46,116 bases of DNA from Melioribacteraceae bacterium (GTDB taxonomy: Bacteria; Bacteroidota; Ignavibacteria; Ignavibacteriales; Melioribacteraceae). The position numbers and the translations under genes were made by a program. Below are positions 3,698 through 35,160 of this stretch, piece after piece. The notes beneath the pieces were generated by a model. That model was given only the letters and a program-made list of their open reading frames with translations. It did not search any database and was not told the origin of the DNA. Where the stretch lies: contig JAIOZI010000042.1 of NCBI GenBank assembly GCA_021740785.1, positions 1 to 46,116 on the forward strand, given 5' to 3'. The first letter of the stretch is position 1; the number at the start of each line of letters is the position of its first letter.

Positions 3698-4972
3698 CTA
3701 TACCTTCAAATAATTTATTTCCTTAAATAATACTCTAGAGCAAAAATATCTTAACCTTGTTAAAAGTCTGCGTTCATTATTGTTTAATTTAGATTTGCCT
3801 CGATGAACAATTTGGGAACGGATTTCATAGATTTCATTAAAATCCTTTAATATATTTTGTCTTTCTTCATCGTTTTCACTTATTAAATAAGCGCATCTAT
3901 TTCTTAACAATTCACCAATACCGATAATGTCAGATTTTGATTTATCTCCAAGTAAGATTTCTAAAACAACTGTATTTTGAATAAAAGAAAGTAATTCGTT
4001 ATTCCCAGACATACCTTCGAAAAACCATTTGCTTGCTTCTAATATCTTCTGTGTTTTAGGTAGACCAGACAATAACTTTCCAATTAACTGAACGTTATAT
4101 GTAAGAAAATCTTTATTTATATTTTCATTAGGACCAATAGGATTATTTACAAATTCAATGTCATAAATACATTCTTTTAGATCATCAGGAAGATTATGGT
4201 AACTATCATAAATCCAATTACCATCAATTTTCGAGAATGTTTTTATGCCATCGGATTTATTGGAGCTATAATTACTATTGTATCTAAATAATGAACGAGC
4301 TAGACCTAAACCATATAGATATTTTATAGTATTAATAGAATCGGATAATGTTTCAGTAAAGTAGTAATCGCAGTTATAACCTTTAGTAGTAATTTCTAAA
4401 TAGAGTTTGTCCTTTTCTAAATAGTTATGGTCTTCTTGCAAATCAGCAAATCTAAACTTAAAAATACCTTCAGTTATAACCTTGCTAGTAGTATCCAACT
4501 TGGTATTAATTATAAAATCATCAGTAAGCTCAATAATTCTTAGGTTATCGTTAAAAATTATTTCTTTATCATAATACTTTAACAAGGTATGGAAGCAATC
4601 AGGTATTTTTATAAATAATTTATAATCACGTGGTAATTTTTCAAAGTCGTCTATGAGTTTATTCGATAACGTTTCCAGATTAGGTTCAGGTAGCAATTCG
4701 AAATATTTTTTATCTTTTTCATCTAGCTTGTATTCATAATTCTTTAATGGACGCTGCATTTCCTCAATTAAGAAAGTATAAAACGGTGTTTCATCAATCA
4801 TATTCTGATATTCTTTTATTACCTCACCTTTCACTGGTAATATTCTATCAATGTCATCTAAATTGTAGGTTGATTTATAATTAACATATTTGTTGTTAGA
4901 TACAGTTATTTCAGGTAAATATTCAGTTAATTCTTCGAGCAATCTTTTTTTACATTCTTTGTGTAATTTCAT
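3698..4972 (-). CDS. ApeA-like HEPN-domain protein (putative defence RNase)
   Basis: A 424-aa soluble protein. The first 280 residues are not recognisable; they contain alternating beta-type stretches (YKLFIKIPDCF, FKFRFADL, LYLEITTKGYNCDYYF). The C-terminal 130 residues are helical and resemble ApeA-type HEPN domains: ASKWFFEG, then FIQNTVVLEILLGD, GIGELLRNRCAYL and finally IYEIRSQIVHRGKSK. RSQIVH fits the HEPN RX4-6H ribonuclease motif. Proteins of this architecture include anti-phage abortive systems, where HEPN cleaves RNA on infection; that role here is inferred. Attc-like elements flank it on both sides, so it is one cassette of the array, next to the TIR and Fic genes. Confidence 0.65.
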   Translation of the reverse strand: MKLHKECKKRLLEELTEYLPEITVSNNKYVNYKSTYNLDDIDRILPVKGEVIKEYQNMIDETPFYTFLIEEMQRPLKNYEYKLDEKDKKYFELLPEPNLETLSNKLIDDFEKLPRDYKLFIKIPDCFHTLLKYYDKEIIFNDNLRIIELTDDFIINTKLDTTSKVITEGIFKFRFADLQEDHNYLEKDKLYLEITTKGYNCDYYFTETLSDSINTIKYLYGLGLARSLFRYNSNYSSNKSDGIKTFSKIDGNWIYDSYHNLPDDLKECIYDIEFVNNPIGPNENINKDFLTYNVQLIGKLLSGLPKTQKILEASKWFFEGMSGNNELLSFIQNTVVLEILLGDKSKSDIIGIGELLRNRCAYLISENDEERQNILKDFNEIYEIRSQIVHRGKSKLNNNERRLLTRLRYFCSRVLFKEINYLKV

Positions 4973-30136: not shown

Positions 30137-30373
30137 ATGGTTTCAACTGCAAAAGAATTAAGATTTCATACAAAGGAACTTTTAGAATCTATTTCACGAG
30201 GTGAAGAAGTTATTATAACCTACCATGGGAAACCTTACGCTAAATTAGTTCCATATGATAAATCTGAAAACGATAATAATAAAACCGATGAACTTTTTGG
30301 TATGTGGAAAAACCGCAAGGAAACTGAAGACGTAGATGGCTATGTACGCAAACTAAGAAGGAAAAGATATTAA
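30137..30373 (+). CDS. Phd/YefM-type antitoxin
   Basis: A 78-aa antitoxin: MVSTAKELRFHTKELLESISRGEEVIITYHGKPYAKLVPYD is the Phd/YefM DNA-binding fold (AKELR, VIITYHGKPYAKLVP), followed by a variable tail FGMWKNRKETEDVDGYVRKLRRKRY that would occupy the toxin. Its last base is the first base of the PIN start (TAATG), indicating translational coupling. Good RBS (AGGGGTAAAG) upstream. It sits between ftcD and hutH, in an otherwise ordinary region, so the pair may be a recent insertion. Confidence 0.88.
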   Translation: MVSTAKELRFHTKELLESISRGEEVIITYHGKPYAKLVPYDKSENDNNKTDELFGMWKNRKETEDVDGYVRKLRRKRY

Positions 30374-30765
30374 TGTTAATGATAGATACGGATGTAATCA
30401 TTTGGTATATGAGAGGTAACAAAAAAGCTAAAGATAAAATCGAAAAGCTAAATGGTTTTTTCGTTTCTGTTGTAACTTACATGGAATTAGTTCAGGGCAT
30501 GAAAAATAAGAGAGAACTTAATACATTAAGAAATGCCTTTCGAAAATGGAATGTAAAAATACTCTTCATAAATGAAAATATATCCGCTAAAGCCATGTTT
30601 CTAGTGGAGCAAAATTACTTAAGTAATTCTCTTCTCCTAGCAGATGCATTAATTGGATCCACAGCAAACTCCCATGGATTAAAACTATTAACAGGAAACA
30701 CTAAGCATTACAAGGTTATAAATAATCTGGAGATTGAAGAATTTAAACCGGCATCAAAAAAGTAA
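30373..30765 (+). CDS. VapC-like PIN-domain toxin
   Basis: A 130-aa PIN-domain RNase paired with the preceding Phd-type antitoxin. Acidic residues: D5 (IDTDVI), E in TYMELVQG, D in LLADALI; the fourth position is Asn/His (TGNTKHYK) where many have Asp. Such TA pairs with a Phd antitoxin and PIN toxin are common. The TAATG overlap with the antitoxin gives tight coupling. It is not in the repeat-flanked arrays. Confidence 0.88.
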   Translation: MLMIDTDVIIWYMRGNKKAKDKIEKLNGFFVSVVTYMELVQGMKNKRELNTLRNAFRKWNVKILFINENISAKAMFLVEQNYLSNSLLLADALIGSTANSHGLKLLTGNTKHYKVINNLEIEEFKPASKK

Positions 30766-32466: not shown

Positions 32467-32838
32467 TTACATATATTCAACAACCGCGGCAATTGAAGCG
32501 GCAATCTCTTCCATTTCCGAAGCGGTTAAGCATCCTACCTTATTTTTGAATCTCTGGATATCCACACCCCTTAATTGGAGAACATCAACTGTTGAAGTCT
32601 TTGTTAAACCGTTGGTTGAGGATGGCTCAAGTTTGATATTCCATATATCATTAGTGAACTCTTCTTTCCATCCTCTAATCGGAGCTATTAATTTTATCGG
32701 CAAAACCCCAACAGCATCTGAACTTACAATAACTGAACGGCGGGTCTTTTGCATTTCCGATCCCTTAGTAGGATCAAGTTCAACGACCCAAACTTCTCCA
32801 CGCTTAGGATTGGTTTTAGTACTCAATAATATCTCCAA
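32467..32838 (-). CDS. MazF/PemK-family toxin (endoribonuclease)
   Basis: A 123-aa protein with the MazF/PemK signature: PKRGEVWVVELDPTKGSEMQKTRRSVIVSSD and VLPIKLIAPI, then DVLQLRGVDIQRFKNKVGCLTASEM. MazF-type toxins are sequence-specific mRNA interferases. It overlaps the end of the upstream XRE-ImmA gene by 23 bp, so that gene, rather than a small MazE, is its likely partner. Two other starts near the overlap are possible; RGEVW is the fixed core. Confidence 0.85.
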   Translation of the reverse strand: MEILLSTKTNPKRGEVWVVELDPTKGSEMQKTRRSVIVSSDAVGVLPIKLIAPIRGWKEEFTNDIWNIKLEPSSTNGLTKTSTVDVLQLRGVDIQRFKNKVGCLTASEMEEIAASIAAVVEYM

Positions 32839-33991
32839 AAGTAAATTCTTTCCACTCAGCGTTCTCTTTATAAAAAGCAGCTTCTTTTTCTGCTTGTTTT
32901 TCTAAAATATCGTCTCTTTTTTTCTTATCTAATTTCAAGAATTCTTGTTTTTCCCTTAATGCAAGATTATTTTCTTTGAATTCATTTGCACCTAATAATC
33001 TATTTGCCTGCGAAGCGCTGATGATTTTTTCAGAAAATGCTCTCATTACAGAACTTCTGAATAGCAGCGGTTTTTCAGGTATTAAAGCAGCCGGTTCATT
33101 TTTTTTCCAGCCTTTTTGATTTATAATTTGAAATAGCCTGCTTGTATATGATTTAGAAATCACTTCAAGATCCTGCAATCTATAGATCAAAGCTTGAATG
33201 CTGATTCCATAATATTTTTTGTAGTGAACTAATTCAGCAAATTGTAAAGAAGATCTTTTACTGCCTATTAATTCATAAATAGACTCTCTAGGCGCAAGAA
33301 AAGCAGCTCCAAATCTAAAAGCAGCTTTCTCTTCGTCAACTTTTAAAGCGACTTTTAATACAATATGACCGAGTTCATGCGCTAAATTTAACCTCTGCCT
33401 ATCTCCAGGAACACCTTTTCTTGAAACTACTGCAGCGGCAATTAATTTATCATTATTATATTTGGTTAGGGCAGAGATTCCATCAAATTTTGTAGGAGTG
33501 TCCTTTAAAATTACATGAATTTTGTTCTGCTCAAGAAGCGCTGTAAGATTTGCGATCGGATTTAATCCTAAATTCCAGAATTTCCGCATACTCTTTGCCG
33601 CATCTTCCGAATCCGCTAAATTATTAACTTGATATGTTTTGATGGGAAGGTTTAACTCTTCTAAAATTCCAATTTTTTCTTGTAACTTTATTCTTTCTTC
33701 AAGTTCGGTTTTTACAAGATTTTCAATGATACCCTTTTTTTTCTTTCCTAAACCGGATCCTTTTCTATAAGCGATAAACTCAGTTGACAAATCCGGCGGA
33801 TTAGTTAATTGTAGTGCTTTTATATTAAACGCTTGGGCTAATTTTGTTAAAACACTAATGGAAGGCTGCATCAATCCTCTTTCATACTTTGAAAGAGCAT
33901 TTTTCGACACTATACCCCCAATTTCTGCAGATAACTCATCCAATGACCAGCCCTTGGATAGTCTAAATTGTTTTAATCTTTCACTTAACAT
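32816..33991 (-). CDS. XRE-type regulator with ImmA/IrrE metallopeptidase domain
   Basis: A 391-aa protein of COG2856 type. Residues 3-60 are a XRE helix-turn-helix (LKQFRLSKGWSLDELSAEIG, NALSKYERGLMQPSI). A middle helical region is followed by the ImmA/IrrE zinc-peptidase domain with HELGH at about 205-209. These proteins act as repressors or antitoxins that are cut or cut others under stress. Downstream and overlapping by 23 bp is a MazF toxin, so this is plausibly its large antitoxin/regulator. A palindromic operator candidate lies 19-57 bp upstream of its start. Confidence 0.85.
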   Translation of the reverse strand: MLSERLKQFRLSKGWSLDELSAEIGGIVSKNALSKYERGLMQPSISVLTKLAQAFNIKALQLTNPPDLSTEFIAYRKGSGLGKKKKGIIENLVKTELEERIKLQEKIGILEELNLPIKTYQVNNLADSEDAAKSMRKFWNLGLNPIANLTALLEQNKIHVILKDTPTKFDGISALTKYNNDKLIAAAVVSRKGVPGDRQRLNLAHELGHIVLKVALKVDEEKAAFRFGAAFLAPRESIYELIGSKRSSLQFAELVHYKKYYGISIQALIYRLQDLEVISKSYTSRLFQIINQKGWKKNEPAALIPEKPLLFRSSVMRAFSEKIISASQANRLLGANEFKENNLALREKQEFLKLDKKKRDDILEKQAEKEAAFYKENAEWKEFTFGDIIEY

Positions 33992-34048: not shown

Positions 34049-34378
34049 ATAAAATTATCATAAATGTTCCGGGATGCCCAGTTGTACACTCTTTAGGAGG
34101 TGGAATAAAATAAGTCAACCGCTTATATTTCAAATCCCGCATACCCCTTCGGTTTATTTTTGTGCTTTGACCGTGTGTTATATTTTTACTGTTTGGAATA
34201 TTCACAACTTATTTTGTCATAAATATTATTTTAAGTTTGAGTTGTTAAGCAAAACCTTACAACTGAATTTTGGTCTAACTCCATTTTTAACAATATGTTG
34301 AAGAATTAGAGAACAATTATTTATTTGAGGTGTAAAAATAGCATTAAATTAAAACAACCGATATACACATTATTTTTC
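34049..34378. other. Noncoding stretch, no gene seen
   Basis: AT-rich DNA between the XRE operator and the RNA promoter. Short frames cross it but lack family likeness or a ribosome-binding site. GGAGGTGGAATAAAATAAG near 34098 is purine-rich and could be a chance RBS-like match. Confidence 0.4.
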
Positions 34379-34408
34379 TTGACTTTATTGTTAACAAAAT
34401 TCTATATT
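34379..34408 (+). promoter_or_regulatory. Promoter of the structured RNA
   Basis: TTGACT (34379-34384) and TATATT (34403-34408) with an 18-bp spacer form a good housekeeping-type -35/-10 pair on the plus strand. Transcription would start near 34415, about 17 bp before the first helix of the RNA. Confidence 0.6.
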
Positions 34409-34414
34409 ATAGAA

Positions 34415-34493
34415 CAAGTTTGAAAAAGGTTCCGCTCTGATAACAAGAACCCAGGGGGTTCTTCCGAAAGGATAGTCAGAGCGGTCGTATTTT
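34415..34493 (+). ncRNA. Compact structured RNA next to the DUF3800 gene
   Basis: Helix P1 pairs CCGCTCTGA (34432-34440) with TCAGAGCGG (34476-34484), 9 bp perfect. P2 is AAGAACCC (34445-34452) with GGGTTCTT (34456-34463), loop AGG. P3 is CC-GAAA-GG (34464-34471), a GNRA tetraloop. P2 and P3 abut, making a three-way junction with UAAC and AUAG joining strands. P1 is followed by TCGTATTTT, a plausible 3' end. It ends just before the convergent DUF3800 stop at 34498. Candidate RNA families named after DUF3800 have been reported beside such genes; whether this is one of them I cannot tell. Confidence 0.65.
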
Positions 34494-34497
34494 AAAG

Positions 34498-35160
34498 CTA
34501 ATAATATTTATTAACACCAGACCAAAAAACATCAAATTCGCTTGCGATTGCTTCTTTTATAAGATCATAGTTTTCCAATTTATTTCTTTCCCATTTGCGA
34601 AAAATTGACCAATTAAAATAATCAACAATTTGCAAATTGATATCTGATTTTGAAGAGTAATGAAAAATCTTGTATTCACGCACAGAATCTTTTATCCACC
34701 GACTTACATACGATTTAATTGCTTTTTCTACATCTTTCTTTTTTCTTTTAACAGGGATTTCATCAGTAATAATAAAAATTTTAGAAAATTTATTTTTGTA
34801 ACGGGTAAGAATGTAATTAAAGAGAATATCAAATATTTTTATGTAGAATTTTGCATGGTCCTGTAGAGAAGGGTGTGTTTTATTTTTCTCTACAATCACA
34901 CTATCAATTGTAAAATTGGTAATATTCTCTGATATCAAATTGAACACTTCATTTCGAGTTGTGTAAGTATCCTCAGTAGCATGAAAATATTCAAATTCAA
35001 TATCTTTTTCCCATAAGTCATATTTTAAATTTACAAGAGGTTCATAAATTACAAATGGTCTAACTTTCGATAGTGCTGTTAAAGTAAAAAATTTAGTCCC
35101 CTTGTTGGAAAAATCGAGATTTCCACCCTCATCAACAAATATGTAAAGAGTATCATTCAT
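34498..35160 (-). CDS. DUF3800 protein
   Basis: A 220-aa soluble protein of the DUF3800 family. YIFVDEGGNLDF (N-terminus, D10-E11) is the usual (V/I)DESG-like motif; FIITDEIPVKRKKKDVEKAI and INLQIVDYFNWSIFRKWE (the LQ-x-x-D-x-x-xW motif) follow. The fold is thought to be RNase H-like, with the acidic residues forming a metal site, but a biochemical role is not established. The gene stands alone and is convergent with the structured RNA (3' ends about 5 bp apart). This co-location with a compact RNA is the notable feature. Confidence 0.85.
   Translation of the reverse strand: MNDTLYIFVDEGGNLDFSNKGTKFFTLTALSKVRPFVIYEPLVNLKYDLWEKDIEFEYFHATEDTYTTRNEVFNLISENITNFTIDSVIVEKNKTHPSLQDHAKFYIKIFDILFNYILTRYKNKFSKIFIITDEIPVKRKKKDVEKAIKSYVSRWIKDSVREYKIFHYSSKSDINLQIVDYFNWSIFRKWERNKLENYDLIKEAIASEFDVFWSGVNKYY

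Follow-up and report, generated by a model that had tools for sequence, protein, structure and literature searches.

The window analyzed here, i.e., the whole stretch of 46,116 nucleotides, carries a DUF3800 gene on its reverse strand and, facing it on the forward strand, a region predicted to specify a small structured RNA (Table 1). The neighbours of these two features are hflX and an XRE-ImmA/PemK gene pair, and neither feature is in an R-M operon. In the pair (32467-33991), the XRE-ImmA regulator gene overlaps the PemK/MazF-type gene, and the regulator matches the PADLOC RmrA models with an E-value of 1e-48. Another gene pair, composed of a Phd/YefM antitoxin and a PIN-domain gene, is found at 30137-30765.

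Table 1. Predicted features of the RNA and DUF3800 gene in the window, and two further RNA classes at related loci.
Feature	Position or loci	Strand	Remarks
-35 hexamer TTGACT	34379..34384	+	promoter scan
-10 hexamer TATATT	34403..34408	+	spacer 18; predicted start near 34415
Structured RNA, three-way junction	34425..34489	+	extent from covariance models R1/R2; 83.8 bits with R1, the window being an R1 member
Unpaired leader AAAGGTT	34425..34431	+	letters 1-6 nearly invariant, seventh free (columns 1-7, 15 sequences)
P1 5' arm, 9 bp	34432..34440	+	partner 34476-34484; two-sided changes in 7/9 pairs
P1/P2 joint TAACA	34441..34445	+	mostly TRAYA across the RNA family
P2 hairpin, 7 pairs, 3-nt loop	34446..34462 (arms 34446-34452/34456-34462)	+	two-sided changes in 4/7 pairs
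P3 hairpin TCC-GAAA-GGA	34463..34472 (arms 34463-34465/34470-34472)	+	two-sided changes in 3/3 modelled pairs
P3/P1 joint TAG	34473..34475	+	present in 15/15 sequences
P1 3' arm	34476..34484	+	next letters TCG, then TATTTT (short T run)
DUF3800 gene, 220 aa, RNase HII-like fold (model)	34498..35160	-	putative catalytic D10, E11, D133, D180
Class B RNA, CAARTAARTCCTYR...TAAATAGC...GG hairpin	L044, L045, L046, L048, L052, L058, L014 (=L077)		3' of DUF3800, convergent
Class C RNA, CGGCTNCANGCCG hairpin	L015, L065, L070, L071, L075, L078-L085		3' of third DUF3800 clade, convergent

A sequence-only reading of the window had proposed that a -35/-10 pair with an 18-bp spacer precedes a three-helix RNA. 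The promoter pair (TTGACT-18-TATATT) is indeed present and agrees with the consensus at 10/12 positions; because three promoter-like sites occur in 34300-34600 on both strands, against 1.4 ± 1.2 expected by chance, it is weak evidence when taken alone. The three-helix fold holds, since the 34419-34497 segment reaches -31.4 kcal/mol compared with -16.4 ± 3.0 for shuffled sequences (z -5.0), none of the 200 shuffles being equally stable. Regarding helix sizes, the nine base pairs of P1 stand, P2 comprises seven conserved pairs with an eighth, an A-U pair, possible beyond them as had been drawn, and P3 is one pair longer than the proposed CC-GAAA-GG. The convergent layout was also found, with a different gap: the figure of about 5 bp relied on an unmapped RNA 3' end, and 11 nt were measured between the end of the RNA core (34486) and the DUF3800 stop codon (34498-34500).

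The identity given to the gene was confirmed by PF12686 (DUF3800), the sole Pfam family found in the protein, which matches with 41.9 bits (cut-off 21) and an E-value of 2e-10. No sequence relative was found among solved structures at E≤1. An AlphaFold model based on four sequences (pLDDT 52) was set aside as poor, and an AF2 model from 15 aligned sequences reached a pLDDT of 91. RNase HII (1eke_A) ranks first both in Foldseek (E 2e-4, TM 0.50) and in VIA-align (Z 11.8 over 167 residues, rmsd 3.7, 14% identity), followed by other RNase H2/H3 and by Argonaute PIWI domains. The model of the DUF3800 protein has an RNase H fold of the RNase HII/PIWI type, in agreement with the RNase H fold mentioned for DUF3800 in two reports (PMC10910872, PMC12669027).

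Thirteen residues are invariant in 15/15 proteins, including D10, E11, H60, K92, Q177, D180, and R188. The first strand carries DE[GAS]G, which resembles the DEAG motif of RNase HII. RNase HII has four acidic active-site residues; of the putative counterparts here, D10, E11, and D180 are found in 15/15 proteins, and the third acidic position, D133, is kept in 11/15. With D133 absent from 4/15 proteins, an active nuclease is therefore not required of every member.

A protein search of reference genomes provided four first relatives, from Nitrospirales and Candidatus Scalindua, with 46-50% identity to the window protein, and the same fold occupies the same convergent place in 4/4. The covariance model used for further searching was built from the window and these four sequences. 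With this model, the same RNA was found, convergent and at the 3' side of the gene, at 23/23 subfamily loci with a readable 3' flank: the window, L009-L012, L025-L027, L033, L036 (=L096), L038 (=L095), L040, L041, L043, L076, L094, L097, L098, L099, L101, L102, L104, and L105. The match is at E<0.01 for 22 loci and weak for L097 (E 0.28-0.49), in the right place. Three loci are gene remnants (L012, L033, and L043), and all came from the protein search except L033, which came from the RNA model. Left out of this count were L063 and L103 (contig ending at the gene), L100 (=L027), L062 (=L011), and H2 and H5/H6, whose proteins are 100% identical to counted ones.

No intact subfamily gene was seen without the RNA among the readable loci, and protein identity within the RNA-bearing subfamily goes down to 26%. 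The RNA is almost certainly partnered with this DUF3800 subfamily; the proposal that it is a DUF3800 partner akin to the known DUF3800 RNA motifs is borne out by the loci of its relatives. Carriers include Nitrospirota, Planctomycetota, Roseobacteraceae plasmids, a Gordonia phage, viral contigs, and the window's phylum, with one genome from the window's own class. The RNA adjoins DUF3800 on plasmids of Phaeobacter piscinae and Ruegeria sp. TM1040, and in Gordonia phage Kenna. We infer horizontal transfer of the module. No further credible copy was found in the window's own genome; one match there (21 bits, E 0.13, L035) and a 20-bit match in the genome of L009 (E 0.11, L034) were left uncounted. 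Initial viral searches returned no relative. Among eight pattern loci, five reached just 10.6 bits and three had no score, and a remote plasmid hit (H10/L116), whose protein falls in the DUF3800-V clade, had no match to this RNA.

Covariation in relatives, set beforehand as a check of the proposed RNA, is present. Two-sided changes already occur in 8/19 pairs among five sequences (the window and the four first relatives), and two-sided compensatory changes occur in 14/19 pairs (71 cells) among 24 sequences. In the latter alignment, 98.4% of the 436 cells pair, 0/500 shuffles reach any of five measures, and sliding the partners by 1-3 columns makes pairing fall to 40-58%. This 24-sequence alignment was fitted to the covariance model and, therefore, leans towards structure; the five-sequence MAFFT alignment, unfitted and with a structure drawn by hand, agrees on 4/5 shuffle measures. 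The measure of further pair types was no better than shuffles with 5 sequences (312/500 as high) or with 15 (132/500), and exceeded them with 24. The strand is supported by 12 G-U versus 2 C-A cells.

Across the family, the RNA is a three-way junction spanning 58-72 nt. In 15 sequences, the nearly invariant unpaired letters are AAAGGT in the leader, TRAYA between P1 and P2, and TAG between P3 and P1; the remotest viral members deviate in the leader and outer P1. P3 varies in length, with a frequent GNRA loop (GCAA in several relatives), and this loop is the only variable unpaired stretch within the modelled RNA. Upstream, TTGA[CA] is located at -55 to -20 of 11/16 RNA copies, several of them close kin, versus a mean of 1.1 and a maximum of 5 in 2000 mononucleotide shuffles. 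A good site of this type is absent at L027 and L036. These upstream sites, like the T runs that come after P1 at several loci, also argue for the transcribed strand given here, although the window has no strict terminator.

The DUF3800 motifs reportedly originate from Weinberg et al. 2017, and to our knowledge no function has been assigned to them. The Rfam DUF3800 families include I, IX, and V, among others. The suggested search for Rfam DUF3800 motifs was negative: cmscan of the window with Rfam 15 gave no match at gathering, only four chance-level matches (E 4.8 to 7) appeared at the RNA at E≤10, none of them to a DUF3800 family, and scans of the relatives of this RNA gave no DUF3800-family match either. 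Membership of an Rfam DUF3800 family was, thus, rejected, and the RNA forms a separate class. Because Rfam 15 has no match and distant DUF3800 genes have DUF3800-V in the same place, the RNA is, as judged from these sequence comparisons, a further class of the DUF3800 motif series, without an Rfam family. As in that series, it is adjacent to the gene (23/23 loci) and has a covarying fold (14/19 pairs). No published description of this motif was found in the open-licence literature, and Weinberg et al. 2017 may include it, outside Rfam.

DUF3800-V (RF02964) was found convergent at the 3' side of distant DUF3800 genes in 9/17 and 8/20 sources. It is likewise a small RNA, although it is an unbranched hairpin of 96 positions, whereas the present RNA is a three-way junction of 58-72 nt without an Rfam model. 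A DUF3800 protein tree was built with 36 rows, including L050 (internal stop), without most of the broken or short rows, the later viral rows, and L079; the label "none" marks rows that neither R1 nor Rfam matched. The group with the present RNA comprises 12 rows and is supported at 90/90, with a single change in 91% of bootstrap trees; that with DUF3800-V comprises 10 rows (support 100/99). The RNA labels require two changes on this tree, the minimum possible, versus a mean of 17.2 when shuffled. Long-branch warnings concern L027, L066, and L082, the placement of L027 being unsure.

Two other DUF3800 clades come with RNAs of their own. The class B RNA is convergent in 6/6 rows of its clade, with two-sided changes in 4/22 pairs, is also found behind the broken gene L014 (a seventh relative), and has no Rfam match at E≤0.1. 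In class C, a near-invariant CGGCTNCANGCCG hairpin was found by pattern in 12/13 loci, with a variant in the thirteenth seen by eye, and nothing in Rfam matched the class C sources scanned (all but L085) at E≤0.1. Its junction rests on single folds, because RNAalifold recovered from 12 class C RNAs only the invariant hairpin and no covariation. Considering the 46 DUF3800 loci issued from three phylum searches, 44 carry an RNA of one of four classes in convergent position (class A, i.e., the present RNA, 8; DUF3800-V, 17; class B, 7, including L077 = L014; class C, 12), assigned by models for A and V, by alignment for B, and by the shared hairpin for C. No RNA was seen at the two others, L060 (a V-clade fragment outside the Rfam scan) and L063 (gene at the contig end). 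Three of the four RNA classes matched no Rfam family.

Type I R-M operons constitute the context of at least 7/23 loci by Pfam, a minimum, as the neighbours of L012, L041, L076, L099, L102, and L104 were outside the scan. The DUF3800 gene lies between hsdS and hsdR at L009, L010, L038/L095, L043/L091, and L094. It follows hsdR-hsdM-hsdS at L011, with an RT-HEAT gene between, and is downstream of hsdM at L033, where the contig ends on the RNA side. Two ThsB-TIR genes are also present at L009. In Gordonia phage Kenna (L027), DUF3800 directly follows the immunity repressor, and an HTH or S24 repressor-like gene is directly upstream of it in L101 and L105. An integrase gene is found before DUF3800 in L036 and after it in L097. 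The RT-HEAT gene of L011 (929-2836), directly upstream of DUF3800, encodes a reverse transcriptase with HEAT repeats, which brings to mind Abi-type RTs or retron type VII. The window protein itself matches the PADLOC model DUF3800_VII (E 3e-13), which we take to be the retron type VII effector; no reverse transcriptase, the feature of that retron type, is present beside the window gene, whose nearest neighbours encode HflX, XRE-ImmA, and PemK.

The RNA also occurs without an intact gene of the subfamily. Run with strict filters on 295 Nitrospirota genomes, the RNA model matched 11 times, in 10 genomes. On 296 genomes belonging to the window's phylum, it matched twice, both times adjoining the gene. 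For 5/11 Nitrospirota matches (L108-L110, L112, and L113), there is no subfamily gene within 1.5 kb, and RNA with a truncated, broken, or absent gene is found at eight places (these five, L012, L033, and L043). The fold is intact at L108 and L112, contains mismatched pairs at L109 and L110, and is poor at L113. The L112 copy is in front of hsdR, and L109 shows, by eye, an apparent antisense remnant of the last DUF3800 codons. A different DUF3800 gene is found at L108 (508-1236), the RNA copy being on its 5' side and divergent, not convergent. At L043 (1300-3282)/L091, DUF3800 is broken by what resembles, by eye, a VapC-type module, and the broken gene is followed by a tandem pair of RNAs about 30 nt apart. 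A role of the RNA in inhibition would fit this asymmetry of loss, which may also reflect target size only, because the gene is tenfold longer than the RNA.

Comparative sequence analysis establishes the RNA, its fold and strand, its constant pairing with this DUF3800 subfamily, its spread over phyla, plasmids, and phages, and its defence or phage neighbourhoods. The constant pairing, the clade-matched RNA classes, the conserved single-stranded letters, the nuclease fold, and the defence or lysogeny context argue for a protein-RNA module. It would consist of two genes, for an RNase H-fold (RNase HII/PIWI-like) nuclease and for a convergent small RNA, probably made from its own promoter and folding into the three-way junction. 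By analogy with AbiF-RCd22, we tentatively propose that the protein is a defence-type nuclease restrained by its cognate RNA. The protein would bind the conserved leader and junction letters, and the bound RNA would hold the nuclease in check as an antitoxin or inhibitor does. Infection or transcription shut-off would upset the RNA, or the protein might meet a trigger of its own, and the freed nuclease would then attack nucleic acid, resulting in an abortive-type defence.

Several known systems offer points of comparison. What the type III toxin-antitoxin ToxIN would share with this module is a structured RNA that may act as antitoxin to a nuclease. ToxI is repeated in tandem. It is also described as co-transcribed with the toxin, whereas the present RNA is mostly single-copy, with its own predicted promoter, on the opposite strand, and downstream, a tandem pair being found only at L043. 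AbiF is described as a phage-borne toxic protein neutralised through direct binding by the adjacent structured RNA RCd22 (PMC12373285). AbiF (Rfam abiF, RF03085) is an Abi_2 protein with its RNA upstream and partly co-transcribed, while the fold here is that of RNase H and the RNA is downstream and convergent; Abi_2 was not found in the window protein, for which Pfam gives DUF3800 alone. PrrC is a nuclease encoded within a type I R-M operon, EcoprrI (PMC3874165). Such R-M embedding is found at least at 7/23 loci, the window not being among these, and PrrC is restrained by the R-M protein complex, whereas the present module has an RNA and a protein unrelated to PrrC.

Inhibition was ranked above a cofactor role because of the signs of a protein-RNA module and the AbiF-RCd22 and PrrC precedents. 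Against it stand the D133 gaps, the location of the window outside any R-M operon, the downstream, convergent, and mostly single-copy RNA, and the L108 copy on the 5' side of a gene. In addition, a strain-specific DUF3800 gene of Legionella, not necessarily of the present subfamily, was scored essential by Tn-seq (PMC7811196). This score is the opposite of what is expected from a dispensable toxin and, therefore, misfits the simplest toxin reading.

The RNA could instead be a required cofactor, DUF3800 and RNA constituting an active ribonucleoprotein in which the RNA serves as scaffold, sensor, or guide. We regard this as unlikely, while acknowledging that constant co-occurrence and clade-matched RNA classes favour it, as does the RNase H/PIWI fold common to Argonaute. 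DUF3800 proteins are also known from some Cas12a2, type VI-F, and V-A2 loci (PMC10910872, PMC12669027). Nevertheless, the modelled RNA has no variable guide stretch, its unpaired bases being conserved across phyla, and eight loci have the RNA without an intact subfamily gene. A guide might still sit in an end of the transcript, since from the putative start to AAAGG the leader differs among loci, although it is short there, at about 6-20 nt.

Antisense control, in the style of type I toxin-antitoxin systems, would have the convergent transcript overlap the tail of the DUF3800 mRNA and lower expression. The modelled 3' end of the RNA falls -5 to +20 nt from the DUF3800 stop codon at 14/17 tabulated loci, so that longer transcripts would overlap. 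Such pairing, however, needs neither a conserved fold, nor junction letters, nor compensatory changes, all three of which were found, and we consider this explanation improbable. With inverse roles, the RNA would be harmful or in need of processing, and the DUF3800 nuclease would destroy or mature it. The nuclease fold and the Legionella gene scored essential (PMC7811196) are compatible with this, and the RNA at loci without an intact subfamily DUF3800 makes it very improbable. That the element is a mere bidirectional terminator between convergent genes is hardly credible and was rejected: T runs do follow P1 at several loci, but the window has no strict terminator match, and promoter-like sites upstream, conserved unpaired letters, covariation, three helices, and copies without a gene all argue otherwise.

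Restraint of the nuclease by its RNA can be extended into a broader, rather doubtful conjecture: all DUF3800 proteins would be RNA-gated RNase HII/PIWI-like nucleases, each clade with its own RNA, some of them guarding R-M operons or lysogeny in a PrrC-like manner, the RNA acting as a latch. Since the RNA accompanies its gene at every readable locus, reaches across phyla, and tracks the protein clades, and since the protein models as a nuclease and often lies among defence genes, the function of DUF3800 RNAs becomes directly testable. Ruegeria sp. TM1040, Phaeobacter piscinae, and Gordonia phage Kenna are named carriers for such testing. An RNA-controlled defence enzyme is, thus, a testable idea, for a module often located inside antiviral gene clusters.

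Other RNAs were observed in the vicinity of these genes. One Scalindua contig (L072 and L062) holds, some 8 kb away from the module described here, another DUF3800 gene that is accompanied by a DUF3800-V RNA. The Rfam int-alpA RNA lies beside DUF3800-V at L073 (1272-1339) and L074 (2229-2296). Finally, the Phaeobacter plasmid (L025) carries at 4293-4370 an istR-like RNA, below gathering, with an E-value of 0.003.
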